Origin: an uncultured Fibrobacter sp.
GTDB taxonomy: Bacteria; Fibrobacterota; Fibrobacteria; Fibrobacterales; Fibrobacteraceae
Length of the DNA: 64,000 nt
NCBI GenBank assembly: GCA_946408125.1
Contig: CAMJQW010000006.1
Span: 1 to 64,000, forward strand
Direction of reading: 5' to 3'
The stretch's first letter is position 1. The number at the start of each line of letters is the position of its first letter. Under the pieces are notes generated by a model, which was not told where the DNA came from, made no database searches, and saw nothing but the letters and a program-made list of their open reading frames with translations. This document shows positions 46,754-56,543 of the stretch, piece after piece. Made by a program: the position numbers and the translations under genes.

Positions 46754-48388
46754 ATGTCTGCGCCCGGCAAGATACACCTGCTGTTGCATGCGCACCTGCC
46801 GTTTGTGCGCGAGCCCTCATACGACCGGTTCCTTGAAGAGAACTGGTTCTTCGAGGCTATGGCGGAAACGTACCTGCCGATTGTACAGATGCTGTGGCGC
46901 TTGCATGAGCGTGGCGTTCCCGGAACGCTCAACCTGAGCGTGTCCTCGTCGCTTTTGGCGATGCTTACGGACGGACTCCTGCTCCAGAAATTTACCCGCC
47001 ACCTTCACAAGCAGGCGGAGCTTTTGCAGAAAGAGAAGAAACTCAACCGCGGAAACGATGAAGTCATGACGGTCGTGGAATTTTATGCCCGTCGCCAGGA
47101 TGCCCTGATAGATTTTTGGGAAAGCGTGTGTGCATGCGAAATTGTCCCGGCCTTCAAGCGCCTTGAAGAAGTCGGCAAGCTCTCGCTTCTCACTTGCGTG
47201 GGCACGCACCCGTTCTTGCCCGCGTACCAGTCCGATCCCGAGGCCGTGCGCCTGCAGCTCGGCGTCACGGTGCGTGCATTCGAAGAAGCGTTCGGACGTA
47301 GGCCCCGCGGGCTTTGGCTGCCGGAATGCGGTTTCTACGAAGGTCTTGACTCCATTCTCGCCGAATTCGGTTTCGAGTATTTCTTCGTCGAGACCCATGG
47401 CGTGCTTTTGGCAAAGCCCGCGCCCAAATACGGAGTATTTGCGCCAATAAAGACCCCTGCGGGGCTTTATTGCATGGGCCGCGAGCAGAGCAGTTCCATG
47501 GAAGTCTGGAGCCGCCGTACAGGCTACCCGGGCCATCCCGAATACCGCGAATTCTTCAAGGACATCGCCTACGAGCGCGACCGCAACTATCTGGGTGAAT
47601 ACTTCATGGCCGGTGAAACGGCTATCGAGACGGGCCTCAAGTACTGCCGTATCACCGGCAGCGAGGACAAGCAGATTTACCGCCCGTGGAACGCGATGCG
47701 CCTCGCCGAAGACCACGCGCGACTCTTTGTCGCGAACCGCGAGGCGACCGTCACGGATCTCTTGCCCAAGATGGAAGGCAACAAGGTCTCCATCCTGTGC
47801 CCCTACGATGCGGAACTCTTTGGACACTGGTGGTTCGAAGGTCCCGAATTCATCGAGCGCATGTTCGAACGCGCCGCCAGCTCCGGCACGGTCGAAATGG
47901 CCTCGGTGGAACAGACGATTGATGAACAGAAGTCTCGCGAAGCGGCCGAGCCTGCGCTGGCTCAAACACGCCGCCCCGCATTCTCGTCGTGGGGTGAAGG
48001 CGGCTTTGGCGAAGTCTGGATGAACGACGAAGTCAGCTGGGAATACCCGCTGTTCTTCCGCATGCGTGCCATGCAAAAGAGCCTCAAGACCGCCCTCGCG
48101 AAATCCCGCAAGAACGCAAAGCTTTATGCGCTCGGCCGCCGCTATCTGGCGCAGGTCGCGCGCGAAGTCCTCTTGTTCCAGGCTTCGGACTGGGCATTCA
48201 TGATCCACAACAAGTCCGCTGCGGACTACGCGCGCTCCCGCTTGAACGAGCACTCCCGCAATGTGGAATCGCTGTATGCATCCGCCACGGCGGCACTCTC
48301 GGGCATCGTGAAGCGCCCCGACACGTCCCTGCTCCAGGAACTCGAAAATAAGGACAATCTTTTCCCCTGGATCGGGGAGATGCTTTAA
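46754..48388 (+). CDS. GH57 1,4-alpha-glucan branching enzyme
   Basis: A 544-residue glycoside hydrolase family 57 enzyme, predicted to introduce alpha-1,6 branches in glycogen. 'HLLLHAHLPFVR' opens the barrel, the nucleophile is E191 in GLWLPECGFY, and the acid/base is D352 in CPYDAELFGHWWFEGP. The C-terminal helical domain with 'LLFQASDWAFMI' and 'YARSRLNEH' is characteristic of the DUF1957-containing branching enzymes rather than GH57 amylases. It follows the DUF4912 gene. Confidence 0.9.
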   Translation: MSAPGKIHLLLHAHLPFVREPSYDRFLEENWFFEAMAETYLPIVQMLWRLHERGVPGTLNLSVSSSLLAMLTDGLLLQKFTRHLHKQAELLQKEKKLNRGNDEVMTVVEFYARRQDALIDFWESVCACEIVPAFKRLEEVGKLSLLTCVGTHPFLPAYQSDPEAVRLQLGVTVRAFEEAFGRRPRGLWLPECGFYEGLDSILAEFGFEYFFVETHGVLLAKPAPKYGVFAPIKTPAGLYCMGREQSSSMEVWSRRTGYPGHPEYREFFKDIAYERDRNYLGEYFMAGETAIETGLKYCRITGSEDKQIYRPWNAMRLAEDHARLFVANREATVTDLLPKMEGNKVSILCPYDAELFGHWWFEGPEFIERMFERAASSGTVEMASVEQTIDEQKSREAAEPALAQTRRPAFSSWGEGGFGEVWMNDEVSWEYPLFFRMRAMQKSLKTALAKSRKNAKLYALGRRYLAQVAREVLLFQASDWAFMIHNKSAADYARSRLNEHSRNVESLYASATAALSGIVKRPDTSLLQELENKDNLFPWIGEML

Positions 48389-48396
48389 GACACGAC

Positions 48397-51300
48397 CTAG
48401 TACACAATCAGGAATTTTTCGGTCTTGCCGCTTGCGCCTGCGCGGAAGCGGTACACGCCCGGCTTCATCTTGTCCATGACGGTAGCTTCGTCAATGCAGT
48501 GAGTGGTGTGCGTGTATTTTTCGCGCATCACGAGGTCGCCGCGCGCATTCCTGATTTCAATAAACTTCTTGCTGAGCGGGAGCGGCGTAAAGCACAGGTT
48601 CCCTTTTCGCCACGGCGTCGGGAAGGCGCGTAGCGTGGAATCCTTCACGACCTCGGGAATGTGCTGGGTCTGCTCGAAACGGCTTAAAATCCAGAGGGTG
48701 GAATCGTATTGATTCGCCTTGACGCGGATGGAATCGAGCGATGCCGTGGTCGCGATGGGGTAGAAGGTCGCCTTCCCGTTCTTGTACTGGGCGACGCTTG
48801 CCTTCCCGATGAAATCGCTCAAATCGAGGTCCGCCTCGTTATAGAACTTGTAGGCGAAATTGTCCAGTTCCGGCTTTGTGCTTTTGGCCGGGAATACGGA
48901 AATATCGGGCCAGAGCGATTCGTCGGCTCCGATCCAGCGGCTCGTATCGGCAAACGCGCTGCGTGCGCCCGCAAGCGACAGGCGCTCCGCGAAATCGTGG
49001 AAGATGCTGTCCGGCGATGCCTTTTGCGCCGTGATGACATCGGAGAGCTGCGCGGTGAACGTCTTGGACGGCTTCTTTTCGAAACCTTCCCAGATTTTCT
49101 TGTCGAAATCGTGCCTGAAATGATTGTACAGGTGGATGTAGAGGATTCCCGCGCCGTAGGAAGTCCGCATCTTGTCGATGGCCACGCCCGAGTTGCTCAG
49201 CAGCGGTGAAATGTAGGCGATGTAGTCGTTGACATCGGGAGCCGTAACTTCTTCGACGCCCGAAGCGGAAGCCTCGAGCCAGAAGGAATAGAAATTACTG
49301 TAGTTGATGTAGCGCAGCTGCACGGCATGGTAAAGCTCGTGAAACGCCGTCACGCGGATTCCCTTGGCCCATTCCTTCGAATAGTCAACAGCCCTCGTCG
49401 TGTAGGTAGTCACGGGCGAATCGGCGACCTTGTATTCGCAGGCCTTGCCGTCCACGTCGATGGAAGCGGTGGAGGCGCTCTTCGACGAGTACTTGAAATC
49501 GTTGTCGTAAAGGATCTGCGTCTTGTACACATCGGCGCCCGTCGCGGGCAGCGTAATCCCGAAACATCCATCCTGGCAGCTTCCGGCCAGGACATATCCG
49601 GGATTGCGGACCTTCAAAAGGTCAATCACCTCGACGGCGTAGAGCCCCTTGTCCACGGGCTTCTGGTAATGGTGCGTGATGTTGTCGGATTCCGGAGCGC
49701 GCATGCCCATCTTGGTCACGTGGAAATTCCACGCCTTCTCGAGATCCTCCGCGATGCTGTCGACGAACTGCCTGGTCGTCGCGTGCACGCCATCCAGCGT
49801 GTAGAAAATCTCGAAGTGGTCCGTCTTTTTCGTGTACACGGAATCGTAGAAAGCTTCGGGCTCGCAGGCGTCCCTGCTTGTCTGTGCCGCGACCTTCATG
49901 GCAGAAGCGTTGCGCAGGTTGTTTAAGACCTGCATGGTCCCGCAGTGGCGATCAGCTTCCATATGGGGCGCGCCGGCGTCGGCTCCCGCGAGCGACGGGA
50001 TTGCCAGTATGCAAGCAACGCACAGGCGGGCGAGCAGGTTCTTGGCCGCGTGCGCGACGCCATCGCTGACCGAGAGTGGTTTCTGGTGGTGCGCCTTGAT
50101 GCGCGCATCCACGATGAGCGGCGCGTCGACCGCCCAATGCTTGTTGATAAAGCGTTCGCCGACGCCGTGCAGGTCCTGCGCCGGGTCCGAGCGCGTGAAA
50201 GTCATCCACAAGAAGTCCGCGAGTCCCCGCTTGTCCCCGGCGCAGATGCTTTGCGTATCGTCCACGACGCTTACCCACGGGTAGTTTTCGCGGTATTCCC
50301 AGCGGGCGAAAGATTCCCGCAGGGAATCGAAGTCTGCTGGGGAATGTTCTGCGCCGCCGCTCCACTGCACCGCAAGCACGCCCTTCATGGCGATTTTCGG
50401 GTTTGCAAATTTCTCGGGCAGCTTAAGCGTAGTCAAATCGGAGTCATCGCGGCGCAGTTCCCGACGGGGCTTGCCCGCGGCCACCATCACCAGTTTGGAG
50501 CCGTGGTTGAGCGAGGTTCCGGAATAGTCGAGCGTGTCGATGGTGGTCGCGGTCTGCAGGTGCAGATCGCGCGCGAAGTCGACCCTTTCAAGCATGTGAG
50601 CGAAGAATCCCGGCACGTCGTTCACGTCGAGCGAGGGGTCGTCTTCGCGTGCGGCAAGCATCAGGTACTTGGTGAGGCTCACCTGGTTGAATCCGAGCAG
50701 CGCGTTCGCGGTCTTCAAGAGCTCCATCGGCTCGCGCTCCGCATCGCTTGCGAAAGGCCTGAAACGCTCGCTCCCGATGGCGAGGCACAGCGGGTGCACT
50801 CCCGCTTCGTCCACGGCATGCACCGCATGCACTCCCGGAAGCGACGTGGGAACCATCGGCCGCGTAATCTCGTGGATGAAATCCCCGAATACCGTATCTT
50901 CTTTCGGGGGCCTCCCGACGGCGGTGAAGGGGTAGATGGCGTTCTTCTTGCAGAGCACCTTCTTGACTTTCAGGTAAGGAAAATCGTGCTTTCCGGAGTA
51001 ATAGCCGATGTGGTCGCCGAACGGGCCTTCGGGCTTTAAATCCGGAGCCACTTCGCCCAAGATGCAGAATTCCGCATCGCTCGAGACGAGGTAGCCGTCA
51101 TGTTCGAAATAGCGGAAACGCTTTCCGGAAAGCATCCCGGCGAGCGTGAGTTCCGAAAGGCTCGCCGGCATGGGCGTCACCGCTGCGACGGTATCGGCGG
51201 GGGAGCCGCCGATGAAGATGCTCACCTTGAGCGGCCTGCCTTCTTCGATGGCCTTCTGGTGGTGAGCCGCGATATCGCGGTTGATCTGGTAATGCAGCCC

Positions 51301-51846
51301 GCATTCGTCGGGTGCGTACTCGTTTCCGGATATCTGGATGCGGTACATCCCCAGGTTTGTCTTCAGGATACCACCCTTCCCGCAGGGGCGCGTGGCCACC
51401 TGCGGAAGCGTGATGAATGCCCCGCCGTCCTCGGGCCAGCTCACGATCTGCGGGAGGTCCGCAAGCGTGCATTCCTCGAAATCCTTGATGCTTCCGGAGC
51501 GCTTGGGGAGCGCTTTCAAGCCTGTCAATCCCGCACGGATGAGCTTTGCGGGGCTTGCGCACCGGAAAAACCGTATGGGGTTGGATTTAAAGTCTACCGC
51601 GACCTTGGTGGATTCCAGTGTGTCGCGGAACAGAAATTCCATGCGTTCCTTTGTACCAAATAGGTTCGCTACCGCCTGGAACCTGCATCCCTTCACTTTC
51701 TCGAACAGGATGGCGGGCCCGCCGCATTCGTAGGCCTGCCTTGCGATTTCGGCCATCTCGAGGTACGGGTCGACCTCGTCGCGGATGCGCTTGAGCATGC
51801 CTGCGCGTTCCAAATCCTGCAGAGCCTGTCTGAGATTGCGGTTCAT
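48397..51846 (-). CDS. UbiD-family decarboxylase fused to a secreted metalloprotease
   Basis: One uninterrupted 1149-codon frame. Residues 1-600 are a full UbiD-type prenylated-FMN decarboxylase (LERAGMLKRIRDEVDPYLEM, 'ILFEKVKG', 'HEITRPMVPTSLPGVHAV', 'PLIVDARIKAHHQKPL'), as used in menaquinone synthesis. Residues 602-622 (KNLLARLCVACILAIPSLAG) look like a signal peptide. Residues 623-1149 resemble the MXAN_6640 group of putative zinc metalloproteases: HELYHAVQ at 836-843 (HExxH), then FWLEASASGVEE. The end (LVMREKY, MKPGVYRFRAGASGKTEK) resembles a type IX secretion sorting tail. No in-frame ATG, GTG or TTG is placed to start the second part. It is either a real fusion or a lost stop or assembly error. 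Confidence 0.8.
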   Translation of the reverse strand: MNRNLRQALQDLERAGMLKRIRDEVDPYLEMAEIARQAYECGGPAILFEKVKGCRFQAVANLFGTKERMEFLFRDTLESTKVAVDFKSNPIRFFRCASPAKLIRAGLTGLKALPKRSGSIKDFEECTLADLPQIVSWPEDGGAFITLPQVATRPCGKGGILKTNLGMYRIQISGNEYAPDECGLHYQINRDIAAHHQKAIEEGRPLKVSIFIGGSPADTVAAVTPMPASLSELTLAGMLSGKRFRYFEHDGYLVSSDAEFCILGEVAPDLKPEGPFGDHIGYYSGKHDFPYLKVKKVLCKKNAIYPFTAVGRPPKEDTVFGDFIHEITRPMVPTSLPGVHAVHAVDEAGVHPLCLAIGSERFRPFASDAEREPMELLKTANALLGFNQVSLTKYLMLAAREDDPSLDVNDVPGFFAHMLERVDFARDLHLQTATTIDTLDYSGTSLNHGSKLVMVAAGKPRRELRRDDSDLTTLKLPEKFANPKIAMKGVLAVQWSGGAEHSPADFDSLRESFARWEYRENYPWVSVVDDTQSICAGDKRGLADFLWMTFTRSDPAQDLHGVGERFINKHWAVDAPLIVDARIKAHHQKPLSVSDGVAHAAKNLLARLCVACILAIPSLAGADAGAPHMEADRHCGTMQVLNNLRNASAMKVAAQTSRDACEPEAFYDSVYTKKTDHFEIFYTLDGVHATTRQFVDSIAEDLEKAWNFHVTKMGMRAPESDNITHHYQKPVDKGLYAVEVIDLLKVRNPGYVLAGSCQDGCFGITLPATGADVYKTQILYDNDFKYSSKSASTASIDVDGKACEYKVADSPVTTYTTRAVDYSKEWAKGIRVTAFHELYHAVQLRYINYSNFYSFWLEASASGVEEVTAPDVNDYIAYISPLLSNSGVAIDKMRTSYGAGILYIHLYNHFRHDFDKKIWEGFEKKPSKTFTAQLSDVITAQKASPDSIFHDFAERLSLAGARSAFADTSRWIGADESLWPDISVFPAKSTKPELDNFAYKFYNEADLDLSDFIGKASVAQYKNGKATFYPIATTASLDSIRVKANQYDSTLWILSRFEQTQHIPEVVKDSTLRAFPTPWRKGNLCFTPLPLSKKFIEIRNARGDLVMREKYTHTTHCIDEATVMDKMKPGVYRFRAGASGKTEKFLIVY

Positions 51847-53341: not shown

Positions 53342-54561
53342 TGACGGTGAATCTCCCGGTAAAGATCGAGTTGGCGCACGAAGCAGTCGTTCCAGCTGAA
53401 TTTTTCGGCGTAGTTGCGTGCCTTGCGCTTCATTGCGGCAAGGTCGCCGTGGTAGAGTTCCACGATGGCGTCGGCGAGTGCTGCCGGCGTGCGTTCCTTG
53501 AGGATGGTGCCTGCACCGGATTCGGTGACGTGTTCGAAGGCGGCTCCTGCCGCGGCCCCGACAATCGCGTTACCGCTGGCCATGCTCTCGAGGATGGAAA
53601 GCCCGAAGGTCTCCCAGCCCGAAAGGGCGAGCCCGATGTCGACGCTTGCGTAGTAACGGGCCATCTCTTCGATGGAATTCACGAAACCCACGTACTGCAC
53701 GTGCTTGTATTTCTCCGCGGCGGCCTGCACCAGCGGGAGGCTCGGTCCCGTACCCGCGAATACGATGGCGGGTTCGTGCCCGAGCTTTTGCGTAAGCAAG
53801 TCGTAGGCGCCGAGCAGAAGGTCGATGCCCTTCTCGTTGCAGTGCCTGTGCGGGAAAAATATCGTCAGGCGATCGGGATTGCCGTCCTTGAGCCTGTACA
53901 CGAGATTCTCGTCGCGCTTGGTGGGCGAGAACATCTTGATGTCACAGCCGAGCGGAATCCAGCGCGGGTCAGGAAGCCCGTTCTTCTTGAGCCTCGCCAT
54001 CGCTTCTTTTGATGACGCCTGTATGCAAGCAAAATTCTTGAATTCCCTACGCGCGTACCAGAACGCCCTCTTGCGGCAGAACGTGCCTATGCCTGCGCCG
54101 AGCTTCTTTGCGACGGGGCGGCCAACGTAGGTGACCGGGAAGTCGGCATGCCAGAATCCGACGAGCGTCGATTCGGGCGAGACCTTCTTGGCGGCGCGCC
54201 GCACGACGGTGGGGAGGATGTAGGGCGAGCCCACCTCGATGATGTCGGGACGGTACTTGGCGAGCACGGGTTCAACTTGCGAGGCCTTCCAGATGAATCG
54301 GTATTCCCAGTTGCCTGGGAACCTGAAGGCTTCGACATGCTCGATGATGAGCGATTCGCTCTTTTTTTCGGTAAATGTCTTGCTGTCGGGCATCACGAAT
54401 ACGGAGAGCACGTCGTCGGAATAGACGTCGCGCTGGTCAGTTTTCGCGAACCCTTCGTAGAAGGCCATCTTCTGCAGGTGGTAGCGCCTGACGCCACCGC
54501 CGGAAGGACTCCAGAAGTTGTTGAAGTCGACGATTGTGAAAGGCCTTGACCCGCTCGGCAT
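53338..54561 (-). CDS. Family 4 glycosyltransferase
   Basis: A 407-residue GT-B enzyme. The N-terminal domain has 'FNNFWSPSGGGVRRYHLQKM' (glycine-rich acceptor loop), and the C-terminal domain 'IFFPHRHCNEKGIDLLLGAY' and 'GWETFGLSILESMASGNAIV' with the ExxxxxxxE retaining-GT4 signature. Retaining transferase for a surface polysaccharide or glycolipid. Its start codon overlaps the stop of the primase-helicase gene by one base (TAATG) and its end overlaps the GT32 gene by 4, making a tightly coupled three-gene unit. Confidence 0.9.
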   Translation of the reverse strand: MPSGSRPFTIVDFNNFWSPSGGGVRRYHLQKMAFYEGFAKTDQRDVYSDDVLSVFVMPDSKTFTEKKSESLIIEHVEAFRFPGNWEYRFIWKASQVEPVLAKYRPDIIEVGSPYILPTVVRRAAKKVSPESTLVGFWHADFPVTYVGRPVAKKLGAGIGTFCRKRAFWYARREFKNFACIQASSKEAMARLKKNGLPDPRWIPLGCDIKMFSPTKRDENLVYRLKDGNPDRLTIFFPHRHCNEKGIDLLLGAYDLLTQKLGHEPAIVFAGTGPSLPLVQAAAEKYKHVQYVGFVNSIEEMARYYASVDIGLALSGWETFGLSILESMASGNAIVGAAAGAAFEHVTESGAGTILKERTPAALADAIVELYHGDLAAMKRKARNYAEKFSWNDCFVRQLDLYREIHRQ

Positions 54562-56444
54562 TAGGCTTCTTGCATCCTGTTGGAATCCGGATCGATGGAC
54601 AGCGTTCCGCGGTAGAGGTTGTTGGACCCGAGCCGCTTGGAATTCACGGAGAGGAATAGATTCCCGCCCTTGGATTCGAGCCAGTAGATGGCGTCGGAAT
54701 CGCGCAGGTAGGCGCGCGGGCCCACGAGACCGCTTTCGGAATCGATGAGTTCGCCGCCGAGGAACAGCGGGATGTCGAGTGCCTTGTAGAGGTCGAGCAT
54801 CACGGAAGAACGCCTTTCGTGAATGTCCACGAGGTCGGGCCTGTCCGAAATCTTCAGGTGGTCGATACCGTCGATGATCACGACCAGGTCGGGGTGCTCC
54901 TTCTGTTCTTCCTTCAAGATGCTGAGCATCTCGGTGTTGTCGAACGCGGGTTGGTCTTCCCAGATTTCGAGGCGGTTATTGCGCACGTAGGCCATGAGTT
55001 CGCGGGTCGCGTCGAGCACCTGCTGGTTCACTTCGTCGGATTCGTTCTGCTTGCGTACCGTCAGAACCGACTTACCAATCATCATGGCGACCATGCGGTC
55101 AAAGATCTGCCTGCGCGGGGTCTCGAGCGCCAAGTAGATGAGCTTGAGCTTGGGGTTGCTCTGCAAGAGGTCGAGCGCGAAGCTTGAAAGCAACGTTGTC
55201 TTGAGTCCGAACGGGTTGGCGGACACGTAGAAGCATCCGGACTGGATGCCGTCGATTTCCTTGGTGAGCTTGGGGAACGAATTCATGGCGTATCCGACGC
55301 TCACGTCGGGAGGGCAGCCCATGGCCGTGTCGAAGTTCTCCTTGATGTCCTGCAACAGCATGGAGCGGCGGTGCGTATGCACCGTATCTTCTTCGGTCTG
55401 GTCGATGAGCGAAATCAGCTGGTCGGCACCGTTCTTGCGCACCACGAGGTCGATGGTCTCGTCCTTCGGGAGCACAATGGACTTGAATTTCAGGTCGAGT
55501 TCCTCGGCCATCTTCAGGTAGCGCTGGATGCGGTATTCCTGTTCCCTGCGGTTCTGCTCGCGACGCAAGATGACCGTCACGGATTCGGCGCCGCATGCCT
55601 TGAGCTTGAACAGGTGGCTCTGCGTGAGTTCCTGGTACATCGTGGAAACGACGCCCGGGATGCCGGCGAGGTCCGCGGTCAGCGCGTCAAAGAATCCTTC
55701 GACGATAATCGGCTTGTCGTTTTCGGGCTGGATGTTGAACGGAATGTCGCTCGGGCCCGAAGCAAAGGAAACGTAAGGATGGCTCCTGCTGTCGTCTTCC
55801 ATGAGCCTTCCGTAAACGGAATGGATGAGGCCCTTGGAGTTGCGGGCAGGAATGGTAATGCGCGGTTCGTGGTAGGCCTCGAGGTTGTCGAGGTAGAAAC
55901 TGATCTGGTGGCGTTCGATGCCGGAGAGCATGCAGTAGCTCACGAACGGTTCGGGGTCGCCGCTGTAGTAGCCGAGGCCGTAGAGCTGCGCCTGGCCGAT
56001 GCTCCAGCCGCGGCTGGAAAGGTACTCCGCCGAAGACGGGCTCTTGCAGGCCGCCCAGTGGCAGTAGCGTACGAAGCTTTCGAGGACTTTAGATTTTTCG
56101 CCGCCGATTTCCTTGATCCATGGATGTTCATCCTGCAGCGGATCGGAAGTGTCGGGTTCGAGCGCACCCAGGAATTCGAGCGCCTCGGCGCGTGCCTGGG
56201 GTTCTTCCATGCCGTTGAAGCGGCTGCGCATCACGAACTCGATCAAGTCGCCTTCGCTGCCGCATTGCAGACAGCGGTAGCGCCAGTAACCAAGCGCGTC
56301 GTAGAAGAACAGCGAAGTCTCTTCGGGCGAGTGGAATGGACAGCAAGCGATAAGGTTACGACCCCAGCGGCTCAGCGGAATGCCGAGCTGCCTCGGATGG
56401 GTCTTGGTACGCATGATCCCTGCACGTTCTTGATCTAAAAGCAT
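54561..56444 (-). CDS. Degenerate primase-helicase (CHC2 zinc finger, Toprim, DnaB-like)
   Basis: A 627-residue protein with the domain order of T7 gp4-like primase-helicases. The CHC2 zinc finger is CPFH (C35, H38) and CLQCGSEGDLIEF (C58, C61). A Toprim domain has the Glu (VEGFFDAL, E249), but the DxD strand reads VILRRE (residues 291-296) with no Asp. The RecA-like domain has 'SANPFGLKTT' in place of GxxxxGK[ST], and Walker B VVIIDGIDHL (D525). Primer synthesis, and perhaps ATP hydrolysis, are doubtful. GGAGG five bases before ATG 56444 sets the start. It is the first gene of an operon with GT4 and GT32. Confidence 0.82.
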   Translation of the reverse strand: MLLDQERAGIMRTKTHPRQLGIPLSRWGRNLIACCPFHSPEETSLFFYDALGYWRYRCLQCGSEGDLIEFVMRSRFNGMEEPQARAEALEFLGALEPDTSDPLQDEHPWIKEIGGEKSKVLESFVRYCHWAACKSPSSAEYLSSRGWSIGQAQLYGLGYYSGDPEPFVSYCMLSGIERHQISFYLDNLEAYHEPRITIPARNSKGLIHSVYGRLMEDDSRSHPYVSFASGPSDIPFNIQPENDKPIIVEGFFDALTADLAGIPGVVSTMYQELTQSHLFKLKACGAESVTVILRREQNRREQEYRIQRYLKMAEELDLKFKSIVLPKDETIDLVVRKNGADQLISLIDQTEEDTVHTHRRSMLLQDIKENFDTAMGCPPDVSVGYAMNSFPKLTKEIDGIQSGCFYVSANPFGLKTTLLSSFALDLLQSNPKLKLIYLALETPRRQIFDRMVAMMIGKSVLTVRKQNESDEVNQQVLDATRELMAYVRNNRLEIWEDQPAFDNTEMLSILKEEQKEHPDLVVIIDGIDHLKISDRPDLVDIHERRSSVMLDLYKALDIPLFLGGELIDSESGLVGPRAYLRDSDAIYWLESKGGNLFLSVNSKRLGSNNLYRGTLSIDPDSNRMQEA

Positions 56445-56543
56445 GGCGTCCTCCATTACGAAATCTAATAAAGAAAGCGGGAAAAAACCAATTTTTTTGG
56501 TGAATTTCGGTGCTTATGGGGCAATGAATTGTAAATTTGACGT

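Follow-up and report, generated by a model that had tools for sequence, protein, structure and literature searches.

A UbiD-family decarboxylase gene joined in frame to a secreted metalloprotease gene in four Fibrobacter species, most likely encoding a self-processed secretory polyprotein

Described counterparts and layout of the fused gene

FbcH of Bradyrhizobium japonicum is a cytochrome b/c1 polyprotein that is cut in two at an internal signal sequence. The Fibrobacter gene described here resembles it in that one gene joins an N-terminal part to an exported C-terminal part through an internal signal. Both parts of FbcH belong to one membrane complex, the N-terminal one being a membrane protein in its own right, whereas the Fibrobacter gene combines a soluble cytoplasmic enzyme with an apparently unrelated secreted protease. 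Cleavage has been demonstrated for FbcH, while for the present gene we infer it. A literature search for a UbiD fusion found nothing usable.

The individual parts also have described counterparts. Like UbiD/MqnL decarboxylases (TIGR00148, TIGR03701), the N-terminal half has three UbiD Pfam domains and a length of ~600 amino acids; unlike them, it bears a C-terminal protease and scores below the TIGR03701 equivalog cut-off (327 vs 496 bits). MqnL is the proposed decarboxylase of the futalosine menaquinone route (PMC4746308). The protease half shares with the MXAN_6640 family and lugdulysin an HExxH motif, a sequence match and, in the structure model, the lugdulysin fold, and differs from them in its T9SS-like C-terminal domain and in being fused to UbiD in four species. 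T9SS export has been proposed for F. succinogenes (PMC6851124). Like the C-terminal domains (CTDs) of Fibrobacter T9SS cargo, the protein is modelled as ending in a beta domain with Foldseek matches to T9SS proteins, in a genome with 45 matches to the T9SS-tail model TIGR04183; unlike them, its tail had no match to the TIGR04183 or Pfam Por_Secre_tail models in sequence profile searches.

The window, a stretch of 64,000 nucleotides from an uncultured Fibrobacter (genome G000), holds a minus-strand frame that runs from an ATG at 51846 to a stop at 48397-48399 and encodes 1149 amino acids. The + strand across 48397-51846 is interrupted by stops. The first-pass annotation had claimed an in-frame UbiD-protease fusion here; the open frame is real and also exists in the genomes of three other species, though, as a correction, it lies on the minus strand. 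The three are G015 (rumen MAG RUG14062) and G090 (rumen MAG RUG11357), both deposited as Fibrobacter succinogenes, and G007 (Fibrobacter sp. Horse_feces20). The features of the gene are as follows.

48397..51846, minus strand: fused ORF comprising UbiD, internal signal peptide, metalloprotease and C-terminal sorting-like domain, with unbroken homologues in G015, G090 and G007
50047..51846, minus strand: UbiD-family decarboxylase, residues 1-600, from Pfam domains in 9-456 plus a conserved extension
50110..50112, minus strand: GTG of V579, the sole in-frame ATG/GTG/TTG in the ~25 codons before the hydrophobic core, without a ribosome-binding site
49975..50064, minus strand: fusion junction and putative internal signal peptide, residues 595-624, from hydropathy, motifs and a low-confidence model
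48685..49965, minus strand: metalloprotease domain, ~residues 628-1054, with a predicted lugdulysin-like gluzincin fold, from profile, conservation and structure model
49327..49341, minus strand: HELYH zinc motif, residues 836-840, from conservation in 35 species
48400..48645, minus strand: C-terminal beta domain, ~residues 1068-1149, T9SS CTD-like by Foldseek and a weak profile match

The UbiD assignment of residues 1-600 was borne out by UbiD_N, UbiD and UbiD_C matches of 82, 189 and 98 bits within residues 9-456, all above the gathering score. E. coli UbiD 2idb and 5m1c were the nearest PDB sequences to residues 1-602 (E 5e-46). A conserved extension that ends PLIVDARIKxHHQKPL follows the Pfam domains, and the half is full length, as stand-alone UbiDs are ~600 aa, including relatives in other phyla. 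The motifs GMYR169 and PEG273..D278 occurred in all four fused proteins. The fused UbiD was the only one found in G000, which is 81% complete and could lack a second copy from its assembly, and therefore it presumably has to work. Two loci of the MqnA/MqnD family (PF02621) were present in each of six genomes tested, which makes the futalosine route to menaquinone likely in these genomes. Given these genes and the sole UbiD found, the fused enzyme probably serves menaquinone synthesis. Because it fell short of the TIGR03701 cut-off, we identify it with MqnL only tentatively.

The whole metalloprotease half occupies residues 628-1149. It matched the NCBIfam MXAN_6640 HExxH metalloprotease family (NF045524) at 682-966 with an E-value of about 1e-21 to 4e-21, at 77.4 bits against a curated cut-off of 140 that it did not reach, and all 35 species scanned had a match to the same family. 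The HELYH previously read at 836-840 is present, and H836, E837 and H840 were invariant in 35 species, fused and unfused. The same was true of several cysteines and of E858, which is the probable third zinc ligand. An AF2 model of this half (pLDDT 88) aligned best to lugdulysin 7bb9 (Z 17.4, rmsd 5.4, 302 aligned), which places the protease, as modelled, with the lugdulysin-like gluzincins.

The last 80 residues formed a beta domain in the model. Foldseek matched it to 8glk_D of the T9SS NucA substrate complex (prob 1.00, TMt 0.63, E only 0.025) and to the T9SS protein PorZ 5m11 (E 8.5e-4). An hhalign comparison of the tail with 20 T9SS tails from G000 was weak (prob 16%, E 0.0016) and still beat five control stretches. 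The predicted domain thus probably resembles T9SS sorting domains, and the match to a T9SS substrate domain gives structural support to the sorting-like tail proposed at first reading. Together with the abundant T9SS tails of the genome, this predicted fold would require release of the protease from the inner membrane.

Distribution and origin of the fused state

All of the 80 Fibrobacter genomes carried this sequence family, and both genes were readable at 78 loci. UbiD and the secreted metalloprotease lay side by side in 78/78 of these (e.g. L045-L111), usually with overlapping or abutting ends. The first-pass annotation had proposed aligning the locus in other Fibrobacter to see whether one or two genes are present, and the alignment returned both answers: two adjacent genes in 74/78, one unbroken frame in 4/78 (G000, G015, G090 and G007). 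The two-gene majority cannot refute a fusion that four independent assemblies share; on sequence comparison, it marks the fusion as derived. The four fused genomes are all incomplete MAGs from separate assemblies. Over the whole length of the protein, identity to the window was 76% for G015, 73% for G090 and 61% for G007.

Two apparent further fusions, G038 (1041 aa) and G048 (909 aa), were rejected since their extra length is upstream and spurious and their UbiDs end at ~600 aa; in these two more distant genomes, UbiD had no adjoining protease. A second UbiD fragment at G034:C15:125-448, 65% identical to the window, contains an internal TGA and reaches a contig end.

In most two-gene genomes the protease ATG was near the UbiD stop, usually at -11 to +3, and the protease start often overlapped the stop by 4 to 11 bases. 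Pairing with the anti-SD of 16S rRNA upstream of the protease start had a median of -6.9 kcal/mol vs -2.8 at random coding positions, the former being approximate as the automatic start choice was wrong around the G061 group (ATG 101 bases downstream). The protease of most two-gene genomes begins with an ordinary N-terminal signal peptide. The four fused loci lacked a UbiD stop, an SD and any suitably placed ATG/GTG/TTG, and their junctions are shortened. The distance from the HQK of UbiD to the first conserved protease cysteine was 135 nt in G000, 120 in G015, 111 in G090 and 123 in G007, all multiples of 3. Across 71 two-gene loci this distance ranged over 128-188 nt, with a median of 151. 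The simplest reading of this comparison is that a deletion across the ancestral UbiD/protease overlap made the fusion. A short deletion there would have removed the UbiD stop together with the ribosome-binding site and start of the protease and left the two frames in register.

Trees grouped G000, G015 and G090 in one clade with full support. G007 neighbours that clade. The free trees require two changes and so do not support its joining the clade, but a one-clade tree was not rejected in two AU tests (p 0.39 and 0.068). The fusion may have arisen once or twice. rpoB and rpoC were unusable as species markers, being missing from two fused genomes. In comparisons between the three closely related fused genomes, NG86 dN/dS was 0.09-0.12 for UbiD and 0.20-0.30 for the protease, and both halves are under purifying selection.

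The junction and its possible readings

The internal signal-peptide-like segment reported at residues 608-622, LCVACILAIPSLAGA, is where it had been placed and is the most hydrophobic stretch of the protein. The 13-residue Kyte-Doolittle mean from residue 604 was 2.64, and the next best elsewhere in the protein was 1.36. The signal-peptide segment as we delimit it spans residues 604-624. The basic stretch of the junction is the last UbiD helix, the core is L608-I616, and two AxA sites, A620-G-A622 and A622-D-A624, come after it. In a whole-chain AlphaFold model (pLDDT 67 overall, with a poor UbiD half, and used for the junction helix only), a helix at 595-614 crossed the fusion and confidence was low after it. 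Because the UbiD half was poorly modelled, this helix is only suggestive.

The four fused junctions read ...AKNLLARLCVACILAIPSLAGADAGA in G000, ...AKKFLGNLGLALAVAVVGGFATGANA in G015, ...AKKVLSHLCLAGALLLTPFANA in G090 and ...SEILKKSTAVFCLCFILSALMAPSASA in G007. The other fused proteins shared 28-40% of their junction residues with the window, and all four kept K/R before the core, a core hydropathy of 2.2-2.7 and a small-x-small site. By hydropathy and motif, rather than by a trained predictor, the fused proteins thus have an internal signal made up of an n-region, an h-region and an AxA site.

The statement that no in-frame ATG, GTG or TTG near the junction would start a separate protease proved nearly exact. 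There is no usable start, although one GTG, that of V579, precedes the hydrophobic core by about 25 codons and lacks a ribosome-binding site. The in-frame ATGs at M629 and M638 are both downstream of the core, and no start codon in another frame led to a signal peptide at the junction.

We consider it most likely that this is a genuine derived fusion in four species and that its product is a self-processed secretory polyprotein. The route that we regard as probable is co-translation of both parts, insertion through the internal signal and cutting by signal peptidase I, which would release the protease for the T9SS and leave UbiD inside. The ribosome would translate UbiD first, and the last basic UbiD helix would supply the n-region for the signal peptide kept from the protease. 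Sec would then translocate the C-terminal part and signal peptidase I would cut after A622 or A624. The protease would be freed into the periplasm, from which its C-terminal domain could pass it to the T9SS, as suggested by the fold and by the T9SS tails of the genome. UbiD would remain in the cytoplasm, where what is left of the signal segment may keep it at the inner membrane. It would then be close to the lipid on which it probably acts, a prenylated precursor of menaquinone in the futalosine pathway. A more doubtful extension is that the leftover segment turns the soluble UbiD into a protein tail-anchored at the inner membrane and makes protease synthesis strictly one-to-one, so that the fusion would be an adaptive placement at the lipid substrate, possibly evolved twice.

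The first-pass annotation had named two topologies, a membrane-anchored decarboxylase and cleavage at the internal signal. We judge these to be the right options and favour the latter. An intact bitopic inner-membrane protein, with a cytoplasmic decarboxylase, one span and a periplasmic protease, would fit the one continuous frame and a junction that is the only strongly hydrophobic segment, with K/R ahead of it and, in the window, a core that could act as an uncleaved anchor. Large N-terminal cytoplasmic domains before one span are known, for example in PknB-type kinases. We nonetheless think it unlikely that the chain stays whole: the core is short, P/G/S residues and AxA-type sites persist right after it in all four fused species, and a T9SS-like C-terminal domain needs a released protein and would be useless tethered to the inner membrane. 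Internal initiation, at the GTG of V579 or a non-AUG codon, would instead produce the protease separately, with a long n-region, and reduce the fused chain to a by-product. The in-frame GTG falls at the same conserved LIV-DAR valine in 4/4 fused genomes, ~25 codons before the core, and separate genes are the ancestral state; however, SD pairing at this GTG was absent, with background values of -2.4 to +0.5 kcal/mol where most two-gene starts pair strongly, and every UbiD chain would be fused regardless, as there is no UbiD stop. We give this reading a low probability, below that of the uncleaved protein.

A tolerated accident heading for decay, with UbiD functional and the protease half no longer exported, we hold to be very improbable. 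The protease does evolve faster (dN/dS 0.2-0.3 vs ~0.1 for UbiD) and the fusion occurs in only 4/78 species, but unfused proteases also show this faster rate, their family being more divergent than UbiD. HExxH, E858, the cysteines and the C-terminal domain are invariant across fused and split species, and the frames are intact at 54-67% protease identity. The least credible account is an assembly or sequencing error, a base missing at a stop/start junction, which could be raised since the window belongs to a draft MAG and the genes are separate in other species. We rejected it because three further, independent genomes share the open frame with three different junction sequences, and no start with a signal peptide is hidden in another frame.

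If the polyprotein reading is right, the locus offers a natural example in which a cytoplasmic enzyme and a secreted protease are translated as a single chain with a signal peptide between them, while close relatives preserve the unfused genes. Whether a bacterial signal peptidase is able to cleave at a signal that lies 600 residues into a protein could be tested directly here, and the locus also bears on how overlapping genes turn into polyproteins. Annotators should note that in some Fibrobacter a single gene accounts for both the 'UbiD' and the 'secreted protease'.

Neighbourhood of the locus

In the window, as in many relatives, the UbiD/protease pair is convergent with the gene of a GH57 branching enzyme. 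The GH57 neighbour (window 46754-48388) was 96% identical to G012:C74 (L278), but the G012 UbiD and protease were only 75% and 56% identical to those of the window, a pattern suggestive of patchy recombination among Fibrobacter lineages around the locus. Beside the fused locus of G015, the GH57 gene (G015:C6:4672-6086, L301-L303) matched in three pieces and is therefore probably broken or mis-assembled. Elsewhere in the window's genome, the rpoB contig (G000:C87, L231) was 92% identical to G015 over its first 901 bases and 83% after, suggesting recombination or a chimeric contig. Another minus-strand gene of the window, at 54561-56456, encodes a protein of 631 aa that carries a CHC2 primase zinc finger and, at its C-terminal end, a weak DnaB-like match, and it lies directly upstream of two glycosyltransferase genes.
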